Shown: piece by piece, positions 16,795 through 58,086 of the stretch
Layout of the letters: each line of letters begins with the position of its first letter
Position numbering within the stretch: position 1 is the first letter of the stretch
NCBI RefSeq assembly: GCF_038562415.1
Contig: NZ_JBCFBA010000001.1
Span: 372,001 to 436,000 of the forward strand
DNA length: 64,000 nt
Direction: 5' to 3'
Source: Solidesulfovibrio sp.
GTDB lineage: Bacteria > Desulfobacterota > Desulfovibrionia > Desulfovibrionales > Desulfovibrionaceae
The notes under the pieces: model-generated
Database searches by the model: none
Seen by the model: the letters and a program-made list of their open reading frames with translations, nothing else
Told to the model about the DNA's origin: nothing
Program-made: the position numbers and the translations under genes

Positions 16795-16824
16795 GTGGCA
16801 CGTGACCAGTAAAAACCGTGATAC
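16795..16824 (+). promoter_or_regulatory. TunR-type operator upstream of modB
   Basis: GTGGCACG-N14-CGTGATAC forms an imperfect inverted repeat (6 of 8 positions) whose right half is identical to that of the tunR-proximal site at 58057-58086, with the same 14-base spacing. A -10-like TATACA starts three bases downstream (16827-16832), so binding here would overlap the modB promoter. Assignment to TunR is inference. Confidence 0.65.
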
Positions 16825-16939
16825 TCTATACATGCCGGCAACCTTTCCGTATCCTTACGGCAGTCTGGATTGACGCGGCCTGCCACGACCCGTGTGTCCC
16901 AATCCTCCACGCGCCCTATGGCCATGAGAGAAGACGCCC

Positions 16940-17608
16940 ATGCTTGACGCCGATGTGCTGCCGCCGCTGCTGCTGACGCTGAAGGTTTCGGCCCTGGCCA
17001 CGGCCCTGGCCACGGCCCCGGCCGTGGCCATGGCCAGGCTCGCCCGGGTGCGGGACTTTCCCGGCCGCGACCTGGTGGATGCCGTGCTGACGCTGCCCAT
17101 GGTGCTGCCGCCGACGGTGCTCGGCTACTACATCATCGTGCTGCTCGGCCGCCGGGGTGTGTTCGGCGCCTACCTCTGGGACACCTTCGGCGTGAGCATC
17201 ATGTTCACCTGGGAAGGGGCCGTGATCGCCGCGGCGGTGGTGGCCTTTCCCCTGGTCTACCGGTCGGCCCGGGCGGCCTTCGAGGGCGTGGACGAGAATC
17301 TGGAAAACGCGGCCAGGACGCTTGGCGCCTCGGAGCTGGCCATCTTCTTCCGGGTGTCCATGCCGCTGGCCCTGCGGGGGCTTTTAGCCGGGGTCATGCT
17401 GGCCCTGGCCCGGGCCATGGGGGAATTCGGCGCCACGCTCATGGTCGCCGGCAACCTGCCGGGCAAGACGCAAACCCTGTCCCTGGCCGTCTACAGCGCC
17501 ACCCAGGCCGGCAACGACAGCCTGGCCAACGAACTGGTGCTGCTGATTTCCGTGGTCTGCGTGACCCTGCTTGTGGTCGTGGCCAAGATCATCAAACCCA
17601 AATTGTGA
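16940..17608 (+). CDS. modB: Molybdate ABC transporter permease ModB
   Basis: The 222-residue inner-membrane protein has about five helices and the ModB features PMVLPPTVLGYYIIVLLGRRG and the EAA loop ENAARTLGASELAIFFRVSMP, which docks on the ATPase. It forms the channel for molybdate (possibly tungstate) entry. It heads the gene order modB-modA-modC, 16 bases before modA, behind the operator-like element at 16795-16824. The about 115-base leader contains a short hairpin (CCGTA/TACGG) but no recognisable molybdenum cofactor riboswitch. Confidence 0.94.
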   Translation: MLDADVLPPLLLTLKVSALATALATAPAVAMARLARVRDFPGRDLVDAVLTLPMVLPPTVLGYYIIVLLGRRGVFGAYLWDTFGVSIMFTWEGAVIAAAVVAFPLVYRSARAAFEGVDENLENAARTLGASELAIFFRVSMPLALRGLLAGVMLALARAMGEFGATLMVAGNLPGKTQTLSLAVYSATQAGNDSLANELVLLISVVCVTLLVVVAKIIKPKL

Positions 17609-17624
17609 TACGGAGGATGCCGAA

Positions 17625-18371
17625 ATGAAAAAGATCCTGTTCGCCCTGGCCGTCACCCTGCTCATGGCCCTGCCGGCCCGGGCCGCCGACCTGACCGTGT
17701 CCGCCGCCGCCAGCCTCACCGACGCCTTCAACGAGATCAAGGCCGAGTTCGCCAAGGCCAATCCCGGCATCAACCTGACCATGAACTACGCCGCCTCCGG
17801 CACCCTGCTCTCCCAGATGGAAAAGGGCGCGCCCGTGGACGTTTTCGCCTCGGCCGACCAGAAGACCATGGACCAGGCCGCCGAGAAAAAGCTCATCGAC
17901 GCGGCGACCCGGGCCAATTTCGTGCGCAACGACCTGGTGCTGGCCGTCCCGGCCGACAACCCGGCCAAGGTCAAGGACCTCACCAGCCTGGCCGCCACCG
18001 CGGCCAAGCGCATCGCCATCGGCAACCCCGACTCCGTGCCCGTGGGCCGCTACACCAAGGCCGCCCTGACCAAGCTCGGCCAGTGGGACGCCCTGTCGCC
18101 CAAGTTCGTCATGGCCGAATCCGTGCGCCAGGTGCTGGACTACCTGTCGCGCGGCGAGGTGGACGCCGGCTTCGTCTACGCCACCGACGCCAAGCAGGGC
18201 GGCGCGAAGGTCAAGATCGTCACCGAAGTGCCGGTGGAAACCCCGGTCATCTACCCCATCGCCGTGACCGCCGCCGCCACCGACAAGAAGGCCGCCGCCA
18301 CCTTCGTGTCCTTCGTCACCGGCCCCAAGGGCCAGGCCATCCTGGCCAAGTTCGGCTTCAAGAAGCCCTAA
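17625..18371 (+). CDS. modA: Molybdate ABC transporter periplasmic binding protein ModA
   Basis: The 248-residue precursor has a cleavable signal peptide (MKKILFALAVTLLMALPARA) and the ModA pattern LTVSAAASLTDAFNEIKAEF, MNYAASGTLLSQMEKGAPVD, FASADQKTMDQA, IGNPDSVPVGRYTKAAL and GFVYATDA. These segments include the oxyanion-binding serines and the Tyr/Asp region. It binds molybdate or tungstate in the periplasm for delivery to ModB. GGAGGA precedes the ATG. It resembles the orphan binding protein at 61009-61770 more than the other two in this window. Confidence 0.95.
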   Translation: MKKILFALAVTLLMALPARAADLTVSAAASLTDAFNEIKAEFAKANPGINLTMNYAASGTLLSQMEKGAPVDVFASADQKTMDQAAEKKLIDAATRANFVRNDLVLAVPADNPAKVKDLTSLAATAAKRIAIGNPDSVPVGRYTKAALTKLGQWDALSPKFVMAESVRQVLDYLSRGEVDAGFVYATDAKQGGAKVKIVTEVPVETPVIYPIAVTAAATDKKAAATFVSFVTGPKGQAILAKFGFKKP

Positions 18372-18440
18372 CGGCGCCAGGCAACCGGGGCTCGCGCCGC
18401 CATCGGCCGGGCCCCGAAACCACGGAGCGCGGTTGCCCCC

Positions 18441-19148
18441 ATGCGCATCACCATCGACATCAAGAAAGCCTACCGGAGCGCGACCCGGGATTTCCATCTC
18501 CATTCCGTGTTTTCCACCACGGACAACCGGGTGGTGCTGTTTGGCCCGTCGGGCTCGGGCAAGACGCTCACCCTGCGGGCCATCGCCGGGCTCATGCGGC
18601 CCGACACCGGCAGCATCGCCCTGGACGGCCGGGTGCTGTGCGACAGCGCCGCCAACGTCTTCCTGCCCCCCCGCGACCGCCGCATCGGCTACCTGTTCCA
18701 GGACTACGCCCTGTTTCCCCACCTGACCGTGGAGCAAAACGTCGCCTTCGGCCTGACCCCGCTTTTCGGCAAGCTCTCGGCCGCCAACCGCGAACGGGTG
18801 GCCTCCATCATGGAACTGTTCGGCATCGCCGGCCTGGCCAAGTCGCGCCCGTCGCGCATCTCCGGCGGCCAGCGCCAGCGCGTGGCCCTGGCCCGGGCCC
18901 TGGTCGGCGACCCCCGCGCCCTGCTGCTCGACGAGCCCTTCTCGGCCCTGGACATCCCCCTGCGCCAGCGGGTGCGGGTGGAACTGGCCGGCATCCTGAG
19001 CCGCCTGGACATCCCCCTGGTCATGGTCACCCACGACCCGGCCGACGTGGCCTTTTTCGGCGGCGACGTGGTCAGCTACCACGACGGCCAGGTGGTCGAG
19101 GTCCAGCCGGCCGAGGTCATGCGCCGCACCATGGTGCGCGTGGCCTAG
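18441..19148 (+). CDS. modC: Molybdate ABC transporter ATP-binding protein ModC, without MOP domain
   Basis: The 235-residue ATPase has Walker A FGPSGSGKT, a Q-loop GYLFQDYALFPHLTVEQNV, signature ISGGQRQRVALARAL, Walker B ALLLDEPFSALD and the H-loop VMVTHD. It powers uptake by ModB. Typical ModC proteins carry about 100 extra C-terminal residues forming a MOP oxyanion sensor; this one stops just after the H-loop region. In this window the MOP domains are instead in the TunR-like regulator. It lies 69 bases after modA. Confidence 0.92.
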   Translation: MRITIDIKKAYRSATRDFHLHSVFSTTDNRVVLFGPSGSGKTLTLRAIAGLMRPDTGSIALDGRVLCDSAANVFLPPRDRRIGYLFQDYALFPHLTVEQNVAFGLTPLFGKLSAANRERVASIMELFGIAGLAKSRPSRISGGQRQRVALARALVGDPRALLLDEPFSALDIPLRQRVRVELAGILSRLDIPLVMVTHDPADVAFFGGDVVSYHDGQVVEVQPAEVMRRTMVRVA

Positions 19149-57132: not shown

Positions 57133-57135
57133 GCC

Positions 57136-57846
57136 TTAGGGCGCTCCGTTTTCGGCGATGGCGGCCAGCAGCCTGGCCACGTCCACGGGCACGGTGATCT
57201 GCGGGCAGTGGCCGGTGCGCAGCTCGTGCATGGAAAATCCCAGCCCCCGGGCGCGCTCGGCCATGGCCGCGAGCATGGGGTTGGGGTTGTCCAGGCAGCG
57301 CACGTAATGGTGCTTGGCCGGGAAAACCAGTTCATCGGCCGGCACCGGGTCGGTGAAGGCGGCCATGGGGAAAGGGGCGAGGCGCGACATGAACCAGTCC
57401 TCGTCCGGGGCGCCGGCCACGCCGAACATGGCCGCCGGCCAGGGGGAAACCAGATCGTCGTCCAGGCGCCGCGCGGCGAGCATGGCCCGGAAAGGCTCGC
57501 CGCCGAGGTCGGCGAACGAGGCGCCCGGCTTGGGGATGATGCCCTCCAGGGAGACGAAGGCCGCCAGCCGGGGCAGGAGTCCGGGCATGGCCGCGGCGCA
57601 GACGATGCCCGAATAGCTGTGGGCGACGAGGATGACGTCGCGCAGGTCGTAGAGCTCCAGGTAGGCCGTCAGTTCCCGGACGTAGTCGGCCAGGCCCAGG
57701 TCCTTGGCCAGGCGGCCACGGTGGTGGCCGCAGCCCGAAAACGTGGGGGAGTGGACCGCATGGCCCAGGGAAAACAGGGCGTCGGCCGTGTTGCGGAAGA
57801 CCCAGCCACCCTGAAACGCACCGTGCACGCAGACAAACGTCGCCAT
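57136..57846 (-). CDS. Alpha/beta hydrolase (methylesterase/hydroxynitrile lyase-like), first gene of the oxyanion transport operon
   Basis: The 236-residue cytoplasmic protein has an oxyanion-hole opening FVCVHGAFQGGWVFRNTADA, the nucleophile elbow VILVAHSYSGIVCAAAMPGL (Ser in AHSYSG), and a C-terminal TGHCPQITVPVDVARLL supplying the catalytic His. This is the plant-methylesterase/salicylate-binding-like branch. AAGGAGG precedes ATG 57846. Four bases separate it from the ABC ATPase, so it is expressed with a molybdate/tungstate-type transporter, an unusual companion with no obvious biochemical link. Confidence 0.85.
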   Translation of the reverse strand: MATFVCVHGAFQGGWVFRNTADALFSLGHAVHSPTFSGCGHHRGRLAKDLGLADYVRELTAYLELYDLRDVILVAHSYSGIVCAAAMPGLLPRLAAFVSLEGIIPKPGASFADLGGEPFRAMLAARRLDDDLVSPWPAAMFGVAGAPDEDWFMSRLAPFPMAAFTDPVPADELVFPAKHHYVRCLDNPNPMLAAMAERARGLGFSMHELRTGHCPQITVPVDVARLLAAIAENGAP

Positions 57847-57977
57847 GCTCGCAAACCTCCTTGGCGTCGGCCACCGCGAGTCCGGCGGCCGTGAGGGTGT
57901 ACGCTACAGCAATTGAAAAAAAAATCCAGTACCGCAGGACCGTGAATTCTTTGACACGGAGTTTCCACAAAAAATAA

Positions 57978-58007
57978 CAGTCACGATATTTAAAGAATGC
58001 GTGATAG
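57978..58007 (-). promoter_or_regulatory. TunR-type operator, site proximal to the hydrolase-ABC operon
   Basis: CAGTCACG-N14-CGTGATAG keeps the CACG-N14-CGTGATA core of the other two sites with identical spacing; the outer left half is degenerate. Its centre is about 145 bases from the hydrolase start. Confidence 0.55.
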
Positions 58008-58056
58008 TTGTTGCAGTAGCCCGAAAAATCCGCAGACTTTATCAGGATAACTTCCG

Positions 58057-58086
58057 GTAACACGCGGGATATACTATTCGTGATAC
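58057..58086 (+). promoter_or_regulatory. TunR-type operator, site proximal to tunR
   Basis: GTAACACG-N14-CGTGATAC is an inverted repeat matching at 7 of 8 positions. The candidate -10 (TATACT, 58070-58075) lies in its 14-base spacer, about 60 bases from the tunR start, so occupancy should block tunR transcription and suggests autoregulation. Confidence 0.7.

Follow-up and report, generated by a model that had tools for sequence, protein, structure and literature searches.

Three inverted repeats of 30 base pairs (bp) in a 64,000-nucleotide stretch of the Solidesulfovibrio sp. genome (NZ_JBCFBA010000001.1, positions 372,001 to 436,000; hereafter the window) are very probably operators of a TunR-family transcription factor, with a predicted regulon centred on molybdenum and tungsten (Mo/W). 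One of the elements lies upstream of a modBAC operon and the other two occupy the divergent region between tunR1 and an operon encoding an alpha/beta hydrolase and a second Mod-type transporter. The element therefore belongs to a known kind, TunR operators; this interpretation, already offered by an initial annotation of the stretch, is supported and is not new in kind.

Three elements in the window share a palindromic core

The elements and the hexamer adjoining the first of them are as follows.

16795-16824, no strand assigned: operator 1 (predicted TunR site), GTGGCACG-N14-CGTGATAC, upstream of the nif-linked modBAC; 18.3 bits, the lowest profile score of the three
16827-16832, + strand: TATACA, a putative promoter hexamer (candidate -10, alternatively -35) lying 3 bp beyond the 3' end of the 28-bp core of operator 1
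57978-58007, no strand assigned: operator 2 (predicted TunR site), CAGTCACG-N14-CGTGATAG, in the tunR1/abhydrolase-mod divergent region; 38.1 bits, itself a training site of the profile
58057-58086, no strand assigned: operator 3 (predicted TunR site), GTAACACG-N14-CGTGATAC, 79 bp from operator 2, start to start

All three elements of the initial annotation are present in the sequence. The window contains three exact copies of the pattern CACG-N14-CGTGATA, where 100 dinucleotide shuffles gave a mean of 0.01 and a maximum of 1; the whole 5.07 Mb genome contains five, and one copy of the reversed-pattern control. The fourth genomic copy precedes another tunR-like gene (L004; G and L numbers denote genomes and loci throughout), and for the fifth (L005) no link to a tunR-like gene was established. 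Matches with two mismatches are mostly chance-like in the window (21 found, 10.0 expected). The core had been described as invariant: it is exact in all three elements, but it is only a subset of the fuller genus palindrome TRTCACG-N14-CGTGAYA, the consensus of 27 unique sites with an A/T-rich spacer. As also proposed, two of the elements abut or overlap -10-like hexamers: TATACA lies beside operator 1, and operator 3 has TATACT within its spacer. The 28-bp core of operator 3 begins 79 bp ahead of the start codon of tunR1. Rfam at gathering thresholds returned no RNA family in the window.

The sites are conserved upstream of tunR1, tunR3 and mod genes across the genus

A profile model (R1) was trained only on the sites upstream of tunR1 and tunR3 in nine Solidesulfovibrio genomes (27 unique sequences), with no modB, mop or MOT1 site in the training set. 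Searched at E<=1 against 14 genomes of the genus it returned 6-14 rows per genome, training sites and both-strand duplicates included, and a control model with its halves swapped returned no match at that threshold in the same genomes, an empty result that alone shows nothing. A site is found at -78/-79 of tunR1 in all nine genomes examined, with a further site matching at least 10 of the 14 arm positions in seven of them, and tunR3 has an upstream site in every one of the 14 (nine loci plus five). The abhydrolase-mod operon is preceded by at least one site in 14 of 14 (12 loci, L130-L141, together with G150 and G025).

Upstream of modB a site lies at a single aligned place, about 145-150 bp from the gene, again in 14 of 14 genomes. 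Its arms have the form CAC-N16-GTG, without variation in either trinucleotide, and 3 bp downstream there follows TATAC[AT] (11 genomes) or TGTAC[AT] (three). Profile scores at this position run from 8.8 (G080) upwards, through 15.1 in G121 to 18.3 in our own genome, where the whole-genome model search missed the site at E<=1. Such a low score is what would be expected if the tunR sites were real and the modB element a chance similarity. The invariance of both trinucleotide columns at the same place in all 14 genomes, the second site about 80 bp further upstream in six of them, and the strong sites at mod operons of other genera all argue against this reading, which we regard as highly improbable. 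The initial annotation had named, as outcomes that would count against it, a motif scattered through the genome or lacking conservation upstream of mod orthologues; the opposite was found at both operons. Its suggestion that one regulator controls both transport operons is likewise supported by the conserved sites upstream of each, binding by one or other of the three TunR paralogues being a prediction.

Genome G080 separates the two promoters of the divergent region. Its abhydrolase-mod operon and tunR1 share a contig but are 2.2 Mb apart, and both have sites (two at tunR1, three at the operon), which suggests that each promoter needs an operator of its own.

Paired sites lie about 78-81 bp apart at tunR1 in four genomes and about 80 bp apart at modB in six; the remaining pairs are more tightly spaced (about 43-57 bp). 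Further near-matches in our own genome (L102-L104, L106, L108-L114) were set aside on account of incomplete arms or low profile scores, and one R1 site in the genus (L292) has no assigned target.

Outside the genus the sites often accompany tunR

The exact core is near chance outside the genus, with about one match per genome and 89 of 149 genomes having one, and the profile was therefore used instead of exact-pattern counts. At E<=0.3, R1 matched 63 of the 149 family genomes. These comprise 58 of the 109 TunR-positive genomes and 5 of the 40 TunR-negative ones, as classed among the tunR matches listed (Fisher p=5e-6; p=4e-5 when the nine genus genomes are left out), and one of the five 'negative' genomes, G134, carries a tunR gene cut off at a contig end. 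Merging left 65 sites outside the genus, and for at least 38 of these a tunR reading frame begins within 500 bp downstream. Taken with the 14 of 14 modB regions, this supports the identification of the elements as putative TunR sites. Twenty of the remaining 27 sites were inspected. Mod operons account for five of them and a weakly Mod-like ATP-binding cassette (ABC) operon (L327) for one; TSUP/TauE genes account for four, mop for two, and the truncated tunR of G134 and nifH for one each; the other six are unclear. The mop locus L313 has a second site, facing a divergent TrmO homologue.

The palindromes might instead belong to another Mo/W regulator, ModE-like or of the excisionase-like TaoR/TupR family, that shares its targets with TunR. 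PMC10102598 reports that tupABC of D. vulgaris is regulated by TupR, which favours a regulator of this sort. Our own genome also encodes a LysR-type helix-turn-helix (HTH) protein (HTH_1; L306:5473-5940) that resembles the N-terminal domain of ModE by eye. Against such a regulator stand the large share of outside sites directly upstream of tunR itself, the concentration of matches in TunR-positive genomes, and target classes (mod, TSUP) that coincide with those said to be controlled by TunR. We consider this alternative very unlikely, and assignment to TunR remains the reading followed below.

TunR1 joins a recombinase-like domain to two TOBE domains

58137-59318, + strand: tunR1, recombinase-like DNA-binding domain (residues ~60-245) and two TOBE/Mop domains (~251-392)

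Pfam assigns PF00589 (1.3e-9) and, in two stretches, PF03459 to TunR1, which is 91% identical to its counterpart in S. alcoholivorans DSM 5433. The nearest solved relatives within residues 84-243 are the XerC-like 4a8e, XerA 5hxy and XerD 1a0p, and those of residues 234-392 are ModE 1o7l and di-Mop 1h9j (all in the PDB). The Arg-His-Arg-His/Trp-Tyr catalytic set of active tyrosine recombinases is incomplete in TunR. None of 38 aligned TunR sequences has histidine at the HxxR histidine position, and 24 of the 38 have lysine in place of the first catalytic arginine; Arg199 is retained in 38 of 38, His222 in 32 and Tyr231 in 30. The two representatives of TunR2 and TunR3 that were aligned have phenylalanine for the catalytic tyrosine. 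With these residues missing or replaced, conventional recombinase activity is unlikely.

This bears on a further possibility, that the elements are dif-like recombination sites used by a Xer-type recombinase. A 28-bp inverted repeat falls in the size class of tyrosine-recombinase sites, and the TunR domain does match XerA, XerC and XerD. However, the sites lie at near-fixed distances upstream of gene starts, and among the 38 TunR sequences the HxxR histidine is always lacking and the first catalytic arginine often replaced; we give the idea almost no credence, and a transcriptional role for TunR is preferred.

Three TunR paralogues per genome were found among the matches listed for nine genus genomes. 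No Mo gene was recognised by eye alongside the tunR2 loci listed. In our own genome (C2, L093:9992-18768) tunR3 is divergent from a cluster encoding a multihaem cytochrome c and NrfD-type membrane redox proteins, which may share the tunR3 operator.

Both transport operons of the window score as Mod-type

16940-17608, + strand: modB, molybdate ABC permease (TIGR02141, 220.7 bits, cut-off 182.6)
17625-18371, + strand: modA, molybdate-binding protein (TIGR01256, 203.4 bits, cut-off 62.5)
18441-19148, + strand: modC-type ABC ATPase (TIGR02142 is the top NCBIfam match, 198 bits, under the cut-off of 285.05)
57136-57846, - strand: alpha/beta hydrolase (PF12697), first gene of the operon divergent from tunR1
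56362-57132, - strand: modC-type ABC ATPase of the second Mod system (TIGR02142 is the top match, 193.1 bits, under the cut-off)
55661-56380, - strand: modA-type binding protein of the second Mod system (TIGR01256, 95.2 bits, cut-off 62.5)
54968-55657, - strand: modB-type permease of the second Mod system (TIGR02141, 159.1 bits, cut-off 182.6; TupB model, 47.9 bits, cut-off 320)

The modBAC genes are downstream of genes that read, by eye, as nifE, nifN and nifB. A tup label for the operon divergent from tunR1 is not borne out: its permease is under both the ModB and the TupB cut-offs, and its binding protein has no Tup model among its matches. By these model scores the operon is a second Mod-type transporter, nearer to ModA than to Tup. 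A third ModA-like protein is encoded near tunR1 (60859-61770), and the top profile matches in the window include no TunR-type site for it.

Further predicted targets in the genus

Targets beyond the two importers follow from the same profile. The mop gene, encoding a 69-residue molbindin, has a site in 14 of 14 genus genomes. The MOT1-family molybdate permease (PF16983) has one in all 15 copies from the 13 genomes that carry it, our own included; these sites begin 81-93 bp ahead of the matched region and score 19-35, and the two gene copies in G149 are alike. Only 8 of the 15 had come up in the R1 search at E<=1. In our own genome a strong TunR-type site lies 78 bp ahead of a reading frame whose closest relative is the beta subunit of the Mo storage protein (C46, L172:3108-3959; PDB E 5e-68). 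Sites also precede a TrmO-domain gene in five genomes, with a HypB/CobW-like GTPase next to it in four, and a molybdopterin-oxidoreductase operon in two, its catalytic subunit checked in one; the counts for TrmO, oxidoreductase, storage protein and the small reading frame described next are genomes with a site, not fractions of gene occurrence. This conserved open reading frame of about 100 residues near greA/feoA (L105:5047-5367, L187, L211) has a site 45-70 bp upstream in three genomes and no Pfam match.

Sites were also found at genes for TonB-dependent receptors. One type (TBDR_a), present in 12 genomes, has a site at -263 to -331 in nine (scores 26-36) and degenerate sites at different distances in the other three. 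In the loci checked for neighbours (L174, L176, L177) it lies next to tonB, and it is near a double ABC ATPase in L302 and L307, of energy-coupling factor (ECF)/CbiO type in the one run against NCBIfam. Its top scores are to haem-receptor models, under their cut-offs, so the substrate could equally be something other than Mo/W. Receptors of a second type are preceded by sites in two genomes, G152 and G153. In G153 the operon behind the TunR-type site (L304:4145-11439) encodes the receptor, DUF364/DUF4213 (heavy-metal chelation), FmdE, a periplasmic binding protein, a FecCD permease and an ABC ATPase, a gene content that makes an outer-membrane path for Mo/W or metallophore uptake plausible.

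For nifH, 66 places in 64 genomes were found and 51 examined (30 loci, 20 more and G061), with 15 left out. All seven sampled Desulfocurvus genomes with nifH (G098, G029, G134, G110, G061, G122 and G083; L318, L328-L333) have TATCACG-N14-CGTG[AT] upstream of it, and this 28-bp element stops 2 bp before the canonical sigma-54 box TGGCAC-N5-TTGC. Over 4146 bases G061 is identical to the named locus L223. Among the 44 other upstream regions examined, that of G024 (L375) contains a similar A/T-rich palindrome. In seven genomes of one other genus (L357, L358, L361, L362, L366, L368, L369) only the bare CACG-N14-CGTG occurs, its left CACG forming part of the sigma-54 -24 box; with scores of 3-5 where listed these were not counted as sites, and could be either coincidence or an occluding site. 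The nifH gene of our own genome (L381) has no site.

A proposed mechanism

We propose that TunR1 or a paralogue would bind the two 7-bp arms TRTCACG and CGTGAYA, presumably as a dimer, since the arms start 21 bp apart, or two helical turns, and so face the same side of the DNA. Contact would be made by the domain inherited from XerC/XerA-type recombinases, part of whose active site has been lost, and the two ModE-like C-terminal TOBE domains would bind molybdate or tungstate and thereby alter DNA binding or activation. In this way one regulator family could set two ABC importers, the nif-linked modBAC and the abhydrolase-modCAB, as well as its own genes tunR1 and tunR3, storage (mop and the Mo storage protein), the MOT1 permease and a TonB-dependent receptor.

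Promoter elements, called with an E. coli-like matrix, suggest different outcomes at different targets. At MOT1 the same candidate promoter, TTGC[CAT]T-N17-TAAAAT, recurs in all 8 loci scored with its -10 within the spacer of the operator, and bound TunR would be expected to occlude it and repress. At modB the operator abuts the conserved TATAC-like element at a fixed distance, an arrangement compatible with activation, and activation is what the TunR of D. vulgaris is said to exert. On this prediction, TunR would turn on ModABC import and hold MOT1 off under Mo/W scarcity.

Several observations count against this account. The association between TunR and sites across genomes ignores phylogeny, 51 of the 109 TunR-positive genomes have no match at E<=0.3 under the stricter search filters, and six of the 20 inspected outside sites are at genes with no clear Mo/W link. 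In our own genome the modB site is weak and, like the MOT1 site, escaped the whole-genome model at E<=1; the modB case there rests on positional conservation, and its equivalent in G080 has the lowest score quoted above. The TATACA element of modB can be read as a -10 or as a -35, each fitting part of the 14 sequences. Finally, the existence of three paralogues leaves the binding one to inference, and the tunR2 upstream regions (L084-L092; L087, C18, in our own genome) contain no convincing site.

Implications

Comparative genomics thus supports a regulon under a regulator descended from a site-specific recombinase, and extends what it is predicted to control beyond import, to storage, an outer-membrane receptor and nitrogenase, the last of these in a single genus. 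Relative to the mod and TSUP targets of the TunR family, the new predictions are MOT1 repression, the TunR-linked TonB receptor, the Mo-storage-protein gene and the Desulfocurvus nifH site. They can be joined into a broader, tentative picture that we hold slightly more doubtful than not. Here TunR would run the whole-cell Mo/W economy of Solidesulfovibrio, including a dedicated TonB outer-membrane route, repressing MOT1 and activating ModABC, and in Desulfocurvus would gate nitrogenase directly through the sigma-54-abutting site of nifH. If so, molybdate or a metallophore complex would be actively imported across the outer membrane, and Mo/W status would be wired directly into nif transcription by a tamed recombinase. 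A receptor that truly served as a Mo/W route would add these metals to those with dedicated outer-membrane import, and a working nifH site would link Mo/W sensing directly to nitrogen fixation in sulfate reducers. A keyword search of the literature, by titles and the starts of abstracts, returned nothing recognisable as dealing with TonB-dependent uptake of molybdate or with TunR as meant here.

Comparison with known systems

ModE resembles TunR1 in its di-TOBE oxyanion-sensing C-terminus and differs in having an N-terminal LysR-type HTH, whereas TunR1 has no HTH_1 match in the Pfam scan and scores 82.1 on the NCBIfam ModE model, against a cut-off of 369. XerC, XerD and XerA are homologous in sequence to TunR over residues ~60-245 and, unlike TunR, have the full catalytic set. 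The closest likeness is to the TunR family of sulfate-reducing bacteria, reportedly described by Kazakov and colleagues in 2013 (J. Bacteriol. 195:4466) as combining a XerC/D-like DNA-binding domain with ModE-like TOBE domains, both of which TunR1 has. The family is also said to recognise a 30-bp motif upstream of mod operons and TSUP transporters; 30-bp palindromes upstream of such genes were recovered here and may represent the same motif. To this family the present analysis adds three paralogues per genome in the nine genus genomes examined and the extra predicted targets mop, MOT1, the Mo storage protein, the TonB receptor and Desulfocurvus nifH.

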